A stretch of DNA of 64,000 nucleotides from Scytonema tolypothrichoides VB-61278 (lineage in GTDB: Bacteria > Cyanobacteriota > Cyanobacteriia > Cyanobacteriales > Nostocaceae): positions 154,128 through 218,127 of the forward strand of contig NZ_JXCA02000023.1 of the NCBI RefSeq assembly GCF_000828085.3, given 5' to 3'. Positions 27,723 through 30,149 of this stretch are shown here, piece after piece. The position numbers and the translations under genes are program-made. The notes beneath the pieces were generated by a model. The model did not search any database. It was given only the letters and a program-made list of their open reading frames with translations, and was not told the DNA's origin. How positions within the stretch are numbered: position 1 is the stretch's first letter; each line of letters starts with the position of its first letter.

Positions 27723-28021
27723 GGTACAACTCCTATCGAATGATGGTATCTAAGTCACTAAGATTAGCAGCCCTACTTTATATCATCACCATAGAGTTGT
27801 CTTGTACATTTTTGCACGTTGAGCACGCATATTAGACTTTTGAGCAGTCAGTCAAAATTTCGTATTGTGCAAACCCTAGCCTGTCATTTCCTGAAAACGG
27901 TATGAAATAGAGCTTTGCAAGCATAAGTAAAGTGAACTTGACATCAAGACAAGTTAAGTTTACTATAGGATGCAGGCTAGGCAAAAACTATACAAATAAA
28001 CTAGTTTTTTTCAGCCAAGCA

Positions 28022-29170
28022 ATGCAAAATCGTTTACGTCTTCTTAGAACTCAACGCAATTGGTCACAGGCGGAATTAGCACAACGTTTAAACGTGAGTC
28101 GTCAAACCATCAACGCTATTGAAGTTGGTAAATACGACCCAAGTTTGCCCTTAGCTTTTAAAATTGCCCAGTTGTTTCGCTGTCCAATTCCATTCATCTT
28201 CTTACCAGAGCAAAGGTCTATGTTTGAAAGATTTACCGCGAAAGCATACCGTGCAATTGTACTTGCACAAGGTGAAGGTGAACGCTTAGGACATCAATTT
28301 GTAGGTACTGAACAAATTTTGATTGGATTAATTGCAGAAGGTAATGGTCTTGCTGCTAAGGTTCTCAAGTCTTTTGGTGTCACCTTGGAAGCAGCTCAAA
28401 TAGAAGTAGAAAAAATTATTGGTCGTGGTTCTGGAATTAAAGGCATAGAGTATCCCTTTACTCCCAAAGGTAAGCAAGTTTTGGACTTTGCTGTTGAAGA
28501 ATCTCAGAAGCTAGGTCACACACACATTGGTACAGAGCACCTTTTACTGGGTGTGCTGATGGTTACAGATGGGGTAGCAGTGAGGGTGTTGGAAAAGCTA
28601 GGCGTAAACCTTCAAAATCTCAGGCAAGAAGTGCTCAGAGAAATCACATCTGTTGGCATACCACAGGTAAATATTGATCCTAGTAGAGACTTTGGCAGTG
28701 AGGATGACTTAAGTAATTCCCCACCTGATTTTACCTCTGGTGAAATTAGCGCTCGATTTTGTGCATTTTTGTTTTCTTGGGTAGAACCGCGCAAGCTAGG
28801 ACATATCATTGGCTCTAAAGGCGGATTTCAATTACCCAATGGAGAGATAGCTGCGCCGCGTATCTCATTCTTTTCACGGGAACGCTTAAAGCGAGTACCG
28901 CGAACTTATCCCGAATTAGTACCTGATCTCGTTGTGGAGATTAAATCTGCCTTTGACCGACTTATATCTGTACAACAGACGATTCAAAGATTCTTAGATT
29001 TGGGAGTGAAAGTCGCGCTACTCATTGATCCAGATGCTCAAACTGTGGCTGTTCATCGCTTAAGCAATGGGGCGACAGTGCTAGGGAATGGTGAAAAGCT
29101 GACTATTTCAGAGTTGTTCCCTGAGTGGGAACTTGCAGTTTCTGAAATTTGGCCCCCTGTATTTGATTGA
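28022..29170 (+). CDS. XRE HTH – Clp_N – Uma2 endonuclease-like fusion
   Basis: 382 residues with three parts. Residues 1–60 are an XRE-type HTH ([36 protein letters not shown]). Residues 66–205 hold the two Clp N-terminal repeats ([19 protein letters not shown] and [16 protein letters not shown]). Residues 238–375 resemble Uma2/DUF820, a PD-(D/E)XK fold, with [12 protein letters not shown] and PDLVVEIKS. No AAA+ ATPase is present. This order is not one I know as standard. It may be a DNA-binding, substrate- or ligand-sensing nuclease. Start 28022 puts the HTH at the N-terminus. prmA follows after 13 bases. Confidence 0.75.
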
Positions 29171-29183
29171 GGAGAAAGAAAAT

Positions 29184-30149
29184 ATGCCGTGGATAGAGTT
29201 AAGCCTCGATACAACACATGAGGCTATTGATTGGGTCTGTACGCTGCTTGCAGAAACTATCGATATTGATGACATTAATATCGTAGAATATACAGAACCT
29301 AACCTACCCCACCCAGTTGATCAGCACCCTCAATGGACATTCACGATTTACTTATATCTACCACTAGATGCCCAGTCGAGAACACGTGTAGAAAAAATCG
29401 TTAATTTGCTCTCGCCCTTGCACCGTACTGGACTAACAACTGCGATACAGACGAGTGTGGTTGAGGAGAAACCCACAGACGCAAACAGACTCAACTCCAG
29501 AGTTCATCGGATTGGGAAACGCTTCGTTGTGCTGACTCCTGATGCACCATTACAATCCAAGACAGCAGACGAAATCACTTTGAGACTGAAGACAACTTTC
29601 TCTTTTGGCAGCGGTTTACATCCAGCAACCATTCTCAGCCTTCAACTGCTTGAGCAGTATATCATCCCCAGCATGAATGTCTTAGATTTGGGTTCAGGTT
29701 CAGGTATTCTGAGTGTGGCAATGGCGAAGCTTGGGGCAAACGTCTTAGCGCTAGACAATGATAGCATTGCTGTAGAAGCCACTCAGGACGCCGTACGTTG
29801 TAACGGGGTAGAACAGCAGGTAAAAGTGATGAAAGGAAGCTTGGGGTCTGGAAGTGAGATGGGGCATTGGATGGGTGCAGACATTATCGACAATGTGCCA
29901 AGCATCAAACCTACAAAAACTTTTGACCTTATCGTCGCGAATATTCTAGCACGAATGCATATTGCTCTTGCTGATGACTTCCAGCGTGCGCTGCGTCAAA
30001 CTGATGCACACGGGGGACTTCTGATTACAGCGGGTTTTACTGCTGATCATGAGGATAATGTTGACAAGGCTCTAACAAAAGCAGGATTTGAGATCGTTGA
30101 TTGTAAACGATTAGACGAGTGGGTTGCATTTGCTCACCGGCAAGTCTAG
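29184..30149 (+). CDS. prmA: Ribosomal protein L11 methyltransferase
   Basis: 321 residues from ATG 29184, which has AGGAGA upstream. The N-terminal substrate domain begins MPWIELSLDTTHEAIDWV; the SAM domain has TFSFGSGLHPATILSL, motif I VLDLGSGSGILSVA, acidic ALDNDS, and FDLIVANILA. PrmA trimethylates L11 of the large ribosomal subunit. Linkage to the upstream fusion gene looks like an operon, which is unusual company for prmA. A start at 29133 would overlap that gene. Confidence 0.9.
   Translation: MPWIELSLDTTHEAIDWVCTLLAETIDIDDINIVEYTEPNLPHPVDQHPQWTFTIYLYLPLDAQSRTRVEKIVNLLSPLHRTGLTTAIQTSVVEEKPTDANRLNSRVHRIGKRFVVLTPDAPLQSKTADEITLRLKTTFSFGSGLHPATILSLQLLEQYIIPSMNVLDLGSGSGILSVAMAKLGANVLALDNDSIAVEATQDAVRCNGVEQQVKVMKGSLGSGSEMGHWMGADIIDNVPSIKPTKTFDLIVANILARMHIALADDFQRALRQTDAHGGLLITAGFTADHEDNVDKALTKAGFEIVDCKRLDEWVAFAHRQV

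Follow-up and report, generated by a model that had tools for sequence, protein, structure and literature searches.

A candidate self-repressing XRE regulator with a ClpC N domain and a putative Uma2 pseudo-nuclease in Scytonema tolypothrichoides VB-61278

RESULTS

In the window, that is, the whole stretch of 64,000 nucleotides analysed here, one gene joins an XRE helix-turn-helix (HTH) head, a whole ClpC N domain and a Uma2 domain in a single protein. We propose, with moderate confidence, that this fusion is a stand-alone, one-component regulator that would repress its own promoter, receive its input through the client pocket of the ClpC domain and carry a pseudo-nuclease as its last part. 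Self-repression by the HTH is proposed because a conserved element lies over the gene's own promoter, and a signal input by the ClpC domain because its pocket residues are kept.

Fusion gene and domain layout

The gene is one unbroken open frame of 382 aa, from the ATG at 28022 to the stop at 29170. Its parts are as follows.

28022 to 29170, plus strand: XRE HTH–ClpC N domain–Uma2 fusion, 382 aa (Pfam scan)
28034 to 28195, plus strand: HTH_3 (XRE) domain, residues 5–58 (Pfam, 62 bits; PDB matches)
28220 to 28648, plus strand: whole ClpC N domain with two Clp_N repeats, residues 67–209 (Pfam, PDB 5gui_A, Foldseek)
28649 to 28714, plus strand: variable linker, residues 210–231 (pairwise identity, dN/dS)
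28718 to 29140, plus strand: Uma2 domain, putative pseudo-nuclease, residues 233–373 (Pfam, 75.2 bits; PDB 1wdj_A, 2e-11)
28859 to 28861, plus strand: codon of Arg280, at the place of the motif II Asp (alignment)
28937 to 28945, plus strand: codons of Glu306-Ile307-Lys308, the retained motif III E-x-K (alignment)

The Pfam scores of HTH_3 (62 bits), of Clp_N in two stretches (113.3 bits) and of Uma2 (PF05685; 75.2 bits) all exceeded the curated cut-offs of 23, 20.7 and 27 bits, respectively, confirming the three-domain fusion and the order of domains that had been predicted from the letters of the sequence. The HTH, which its score places in the XRE/HTH_3 family, also matched PDB entries 9k3w_A (8.3e-19) and CylR2, 1utx_A (2.4e-12). 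No AAA+ family matched in the Pfam scan of all 382 aa, which agrees with the original prediction of two Clp N repeats without an ATPase; lacking AAA+ modules, the protein is not an Hsp100/Clp unfoldase. An alternative GTG start at 27932 in the list of open reading frames would run across the conserved promoter element described below, and in the alignment of orthologue loci the conservation of the coding part starts at the ATG at 28022.

Conserved element over the promoter

The following features were placed upstream of the gene.

27927 to 27942, plus strand: O1, predicted operator half 1, a dyad of the type GTMAAGT-NN-ACTTKAC that overlaps the −35 box
27938 to 27943, plus strand: −35 box TTGACA (sequence reading; TTGA(C/t)A in 20 upstream regions)
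27948 to 27963, plus strand: O2, the second and weaker of the predicted operator halves, centred 21 bp from O1
27961 to 27966, plus strand: −10 box TACTAT after a 17-bp spacer (sequence reading; TAC(N)AT-type in most orthologues)

When 13 orthologues were aligned, a conserved upstream block emerged that consists of GTAAAGtnaACTTGACA, 15 bases, TTTAC and then the −10 box, and that is conserved at protein identities down to 54%. Within the block 25 of 41 columns agreed in at least 11 of the 13 rows, compared with 1 of 100 columns at −220 to −121; a sigma-70 promoter is part of the element and would be conserved on its own account. The element was defined on these 13 orthologues, where it lies 87–150 bp before the ATG, and was then tried on seven held-out ones, in all of which it recurred; across the 20 HTH-bearing forms the distance is 66–150 bp. 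The best held-out matches covered 19, 16, 18, 17, 18, 19 and 15 of the 19 fixed positions, against a median of 11, a 99% point of 13 and a maximum of 16 in 3000 shuffles, and two of them, L143 (15) and L138 (16), did not rise above that maximum. At the two HTH-less loci no match to the element was found within 3 mismatches.

When each 37-mer was shuffled, dyad symmetry reached p ≤ 0.024 in 12 of the 13 orthologues, the full-length symmetry being marginal in L005 (p 0.024) and not significant in L004 (p 0.77). O1 held 111 of 160 symmetric pairs over 20 orthologues (5 or 6 of 8 in each), was the best of 27 window offsets and was reached by 3 of 5000 column permutations. O2, at offset 21, was the second best of the 27 with 83 of 160 pairs and was weak (2–3 of 8 pairs) in L039, L003, L031 and L004. 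As the two centres are 21 bp, or about two DNA turns, apart, O1 and O2 would set two dimers on one face of the DNA. A role as a regulator, one of the two options originally offered for this protein, is the one kept here. All 20 HTH forms have the conserved dyad element, a putative operator, over their own promoter.

The exact pattern, like the exact O1 form, occurred once in the host genome, at the gene's own promoter. With at most one mismatch, O1 was found at four places in the host genome, as many as for the control, and no second target stood out. With at most two mismatches, 4 of 13 sites in 59 genomes of relatives were located at fusion genes and 9 away from them, the control also giving 9, so that the total of element-like sites away from the fusion did not exceed the control. 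Because the exact site is single in the host and the weaker sites equal the control, the fusion gene itself would be the only supported target.

Two element-like sites, with 1 and 2 mismatches, respectively, were seen at L073:1501-1537 (minus strand) in genome G004 and at L071:1501-1537 (minus strand) in genome G001. These genomes belong to the same genus and lack the fusion gene, and no remnants of it were detected. The G004 site is a perfect O1 dyad, and the genes nearest to the two sites are a LuxR-type regulator-like gene and a small antitoxin/PIN-like pair.

The ClpC N domain

The ClpC part aligned with chloroplast ClpC1 (PDB 5gui_A) at E 2.4e-52, with residue 67 opposite Met1, so a complete small XRE protein appears to be joined to a complete ClpC N domain. 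Foldseek gave a TM score of 0.90 by target length for the model against 5gui, and ClpC N domains were among the 50 matches listed for the whole model. The part is 61% identical to the ClpC of the host. In cyanobacterial ClpC numbering, T6, E31, F80, K85, T105 and E106 were identical in 13 of 13 aligned HTH forms; the equivalents of E31 and E106 were present in all 20, and that of K85 was Lys in 18 of the 20 and Arg in L139 and L140. With its two Clp_N repeats and these pocket residues, this part classes as a ClpC N domain.

In PMC12583610, ClpC N domains are described as having two pArg pockets (E32, E106, T7) and a groove with K85, and phosphoarginine and cyclic peptides are reported as ligands of these sites in the ClpC of staphylococci and mycobacteria; our E31 was equated with E32 through the GTE motif, a matching made in this analysis. 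Cyanobacterial ClpC works with ClpS1, ClpS2 and NblA according to PMC7966870, and these partners are therefore candidate ligands of the fused domain. A sensing of misfolded or foreign protein, as originally suggested, is possible for the ClpC part because the pocket residues are kept. In an arginine-kinase search of the host, the control itself gave no match.

The Uma2 domain

The Uma2 match spans profile positions 26–171 of 172, which means that the protein lacks the beginning of the nuclease fold. The fused domains were aligned with the best 30 of the 46 host Uma2 matches and with the 10 closest stand-alone domains of relatives, chosen by score. Motif names follow PMC1913061, where a migration of the catalytic Lys to a helix is described and 1wdj is given as the structure of DUF820. 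In the first alignment the motif II Asp was present in 40 of 40 stand-alone domains and in 0 of 15 fused ones. Seven further distinct orthologues, unused before, also lacked it (Arg, Gln and five His), and with all distinct forms counted it was absent from 22 of 22 fused proteins. At its place the window protein has Arg280; the 20 HTH forms have Arg in 11, His in 5 and Lys, Gln, Cys and Leu in one each, and the two HTH-less forms have Asn and His. The motif III Glu was found in 39 of 40 stand-alone and 13 of 15 fused domains, and all 20 HTH forms, but neither HTH-less form, have the whole E-x-K (E306, K308). The helix Lys occurred in 39 of 40 stand-alone domains compared with 4 of 15 fused ones, and in 11 of 20 over all HTH forms.

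DNA cutting by the fusion, the other option of the original prediction, is thus unlikely, because the Asp that all 40 stand-alone domains have is missing from all 22 fused proteins. A loss of catalytic residues in all relatives, which had been named as counter-evidence, was found for the motif II Asp and not for E-x-K, which stays in every HTH form. The simplest reading is that the Uma2 part is probably a pseudo-nuclease retained for binding. It may have residual nuclease activity, since no HTH form has lost E-x-K and 5 of the 20 have, in place of the Asp, a His that could bind a metal.

Among eight close orthologues (27 of the 28 pairs, with one pair left out), median dN/dS was 0.09 for the Uma2 part, 0.125 for the ClpC part, 0.17 for the HTH and 0.33 for the linker, whose mean pairwise identity was 0.29. 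The Uma2 part therefore had the lowest value of the four, indicating strong purifying selection. The AlphaFold model, built on alignments of 9 sequences, had a mean pLDDT of 55.6 for the whole protein and 42.5 for the Uma2 domain alone. The structure prediction suggested earlier as a check succeeded for the HTH and ClpC parts, which were usefully modelled, and failed for the Uma2 part (pLDDT about 25–42), so the lost Asp rests on the sequence alignment.

Distribution and history

We found 22 distinct fused proteins in cyanobacteria, 20 with the full architecture including the HTH and 2 without the HTH. A long match was present in 5 genomes among the 59 relatives, the window's own genome counted. 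The order of domains had been called rare, and this was borne out in a sample of the class, where 6 of 388 genomes had a match at E ≤ 1e-60, two of the six without the HTH; a sample of the phylum gave a fusion match in 3 of 386 genomes. In the window's family 17 of 217 genomes, from 10 of 56 genera, carry the fusion. Scanning named genomes turned up 12 loci. Eight are full-length and come from Brasilonema bromeliae, four Nostoc, two Komarekiella and one Chroococcidiopsidaceae MAG; the remaining 4 match one domain. The frame is open in all 20 distinct HTH-bearing orthologues, a set from which 6 of the 10 proteins of one later batch were left out as identical to earlier ones. A recent chance fusion in one strain, one of the two objections foreseen to the original prediction, is thereby excluded.

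In a quick tree, all 15 fused Uma2 domains fell on one side of a branch separating them from 18 stand-alone domains (SH-aLRT 95), with a long-branch warning elsewhere in the tree. In a tree of the 22 proteins, members of the window's family were interspersed with other families; its groupings include L005 with L004 (100), L139/L140 with L031 (98) and L003 with a Chroococcidiopsidaceae protein (94). Because families are mixed in the tree and neighbours vary by genus, lateral transfer of the gene plus its promoter, or repeated loss, is likely on this sequence evidence. The two HTH-less Clp_N–Uma2 proteins (L032:1477-2469 and L033:1486-2487, both on the minus strand) lack the motif II Asp, the motif III Glu and the Lys and thus have a more decayed nuclease.

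Genomic neighbours

One further feature lies directly downstream.

29184 to 30149, plus strand: divergent PrmA-type methyltransferase gene, the second in the genome (PrmA match)

The prmA-like gene begins at 29184 in the same orientation as the fusion, after a gap of 13 bases, as had been pointed out earlier. The link itself did not hold across relatives: prmA is the neighbour at 2 of 13 loci, those of the window and of Brasilonema bromeliae only. We therefore dropped the idea of a prmA operon, the neighbour being genus-specific (Brasilonema) rather than conserved. The genome has two near-full-length PrmA matches, of which the one in the window scores lower (150.8 versus 284.4 bits); the stronger one lies on contig C1.

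No neighbour was common to the genera examined at the 13 loci, and thus no conserved two-gene operon of the type II toxin-antitoxin kind was seen; the flanks surveyed reached at most about 1.5 kb at L003, L004, L005 and L031, and about 0.7 kb downstream at L039. In Nostoc sp. NMS9 (L038:0-4000), genes related to the cysE and Rrf2-like genes of the window lie upstream, a possible trace of a shared neighbourhood.

The defence role originally suggested found little backing. No conserved defence neighbourhood was found at the loci examined, and the best PADLOC matches concern the HTH only (HTH_VI, 46.8 bits; RmrA, 35.5 bits), with a weak match of residues 298–377 to PDC-S03, a Uma2-like candidate (20.6 bits). 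Membership in a PADLOC defence system was rejected, as no match covered the effector or the whole protein. The search of viral contigs found no relative of the fusion protein and none of the Uma2 alignment, and among plasmids 26 records had partial matches, of which 0 covered 80% of the query.

DISCUSSION

In the regulator that we propose, dimers of the XRE head would bind one or both dyads (O1, O2), which span the gene's own promoter from the −35 to the −10 box, and would hold that promoter low. The fused ClpC N domain would probably bind what the N domain of ClpC binds; the ligand is a guess on our part, the candidates being clients, proteins that carry a degron, and adaptors, for example NblA or ClpS. 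Such binding would couple protein-quality or degradation traffic to DNA binding, in a direction that we infer from the sequence. The Uma2 domain, without the motif II Asp and the first strand, is probably non-cleaving, and we would guess that it serves as a binding or assembly module. A bolder form, which we regard as doubtful, makes the protein a proteostasis sensor: the ClpC N domain would read the load of clients or adaptors while on DNA, two repressor dimers seated two helical turns apart would be freed, and the binding pseudo-nuclease would accumulate, its targets being DNA or the numerous Uma2 proteins of the host.

Several other explanations bear on the same data. The ClpC N domain is copied almost completely (61% identity), from the ClpC Met1 onwards and with its pocket residues kept, which would suit a decoy or adaptor that mainly titrates ClpC adaptors and clients, with the HTH merely setting its own level; we consider this unlikely, as it leaves the strong conservation of the Uma2 part unexplained. 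That part would make sense in an antidote or negative partner of active Uma2 proteins, in which the dead domain would associate with active ones at a dose set by the HTH: a dead copy is under selection in a genome with 46 Uma2 matches, the fusion included, and the HTH is antitoxin-like with putative self-control. However, there is no fixed neighbour, and the closest stand-alone subfamily, found in 10 of 17 carriers and 135 of 200 non-carriers of the family, is no commoner with the fusion and is absent from the host genome at that threshold, which makes an antidote quite unlikely.

An active defence or suicide protein would detect foreign or damaged protein through its ClpC N domain, be targeted by the HTH and cut DNA with Uma2; this appears very unlikely to us. 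E306-x-K308 in all 20 HTH forms and a helix Lys in 11 of them would allow it, the patchy distribution and the family-mixing tree would fit a defence gene, and Uma2 is termed a likely solo toxin in PMC2701414; yet the motif II Asp is found in 0 of 22 fused and 40 of 40 stand-alone domains, the first 25 Uma2 profile positions are missing, E-x-K is also lost in both HTH-less cousins, the PADLOC matches amount to a generic HTH and a weak Uma2-like hit (20.6 bits), and no relative was found in viral contigs. Finally, the upstream block could belong to a plain constitutive gene with a conserved promoter and an HTH acting elsewhere, since TTGACA and the −10 box explain some of the conserved columns. 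Conservation nevertheless extends to GTAAAG, which lies 5′ of the −35 box, and to the dyad register, neither of which belongs to a sigma-70 promoter. As the HTH-less loci also gave no match to the element, this account seems to us highly improbable. We thus retain the self-repressing regulator with a ClpC-type input as the best explanation; the original observation of the fusion is confirmed and its interpretation partly supported.

Uma2 domains are abundant in cyanobacteria, with 46 matches in the host genome, and a fusion without the motif II Asp offers a handle on whether they do other things than cutting, and also on whether transcription factors read ClpC client load. In the open-licence literature we found no paper naming the XRE HTH–Clp_N–Uma2 architecture, and none combining Clp_N with Uma2, joining a Clp N-terminal domain to an HTH in a fused regulator, or naming an ArsR–Clp_N fusion.

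Each part of the protein has known counterparts. The HTH of about 66 aa resembles small XRE repressors (CylR2, PbsX-type; PDB 1utx, 9k3w), with which residues 2–62 align over nearly the whole length; those are HTH proteins of about 65 aa, to which the fusion adds the ClpC N and Uma2 domains. With the N-terminal domain of ClpC (PDB 5gui, 5hbn, 6cn8) it has in common the two Clp_N repeats and the pocket residues, but in place of the AAA+ rings of ClpC it has an HTH and a Uma2 domain attached. With Uma2/DUF820/COG4636 proteins (PDB 1wdj, 6okh, 9y1l, 3ot2) it shares profile positions 26–171 and E-x-K; unlike the stand-alone domains examined, with Asp in 40 of 40, it lacks the motif II Asp and the first strand, and is fused.

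Cyanobacterial fusions of an ArsR HTH with Clp_N also place a ClpC-like N domain on a DNA-binding head, although theirs is an ArsR winged helix without Uma2, and their Clp_N parts formed a separate clade in a quick tree from which 12 of 25 ClpC rows were dropped for an extracted stretch under 110 aa. One such protein of about 285 aa, with two Clp_N repeats, is encoded in the host genome (L057, G000:C7:255700-257200; the Pfam scan of this group covered the L057 protein only), and others occur in relatives (L058, L060, L061 and L065, and the shortened reads L059 and L064). Their existence suggests that the ClpC N domain has been joined to DNA-binding heads more than once. A further protein of about 511 aa (L062, G031:C1:4862500-4865000) looks, from a reading of its sequence, caspase-like in its N-terminal part and has C-terminal Clp_N repeats. 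As in the fusion, Clp_N stands outside unfoldases in conflict-system proteins in which ClpN repeats are fused to vWA (PMC7159879) and in two orthocaspases (PMC8283722); unlike in the fusion, neither HTH nor Uma2 is described for them in the available text of these sources. Clp_N outside unfoldases was thus already known, and new here is a putative one-component regulator of the XRE type, in which an unusual predicted sensor is followed by a probable pseudo-nuclease.
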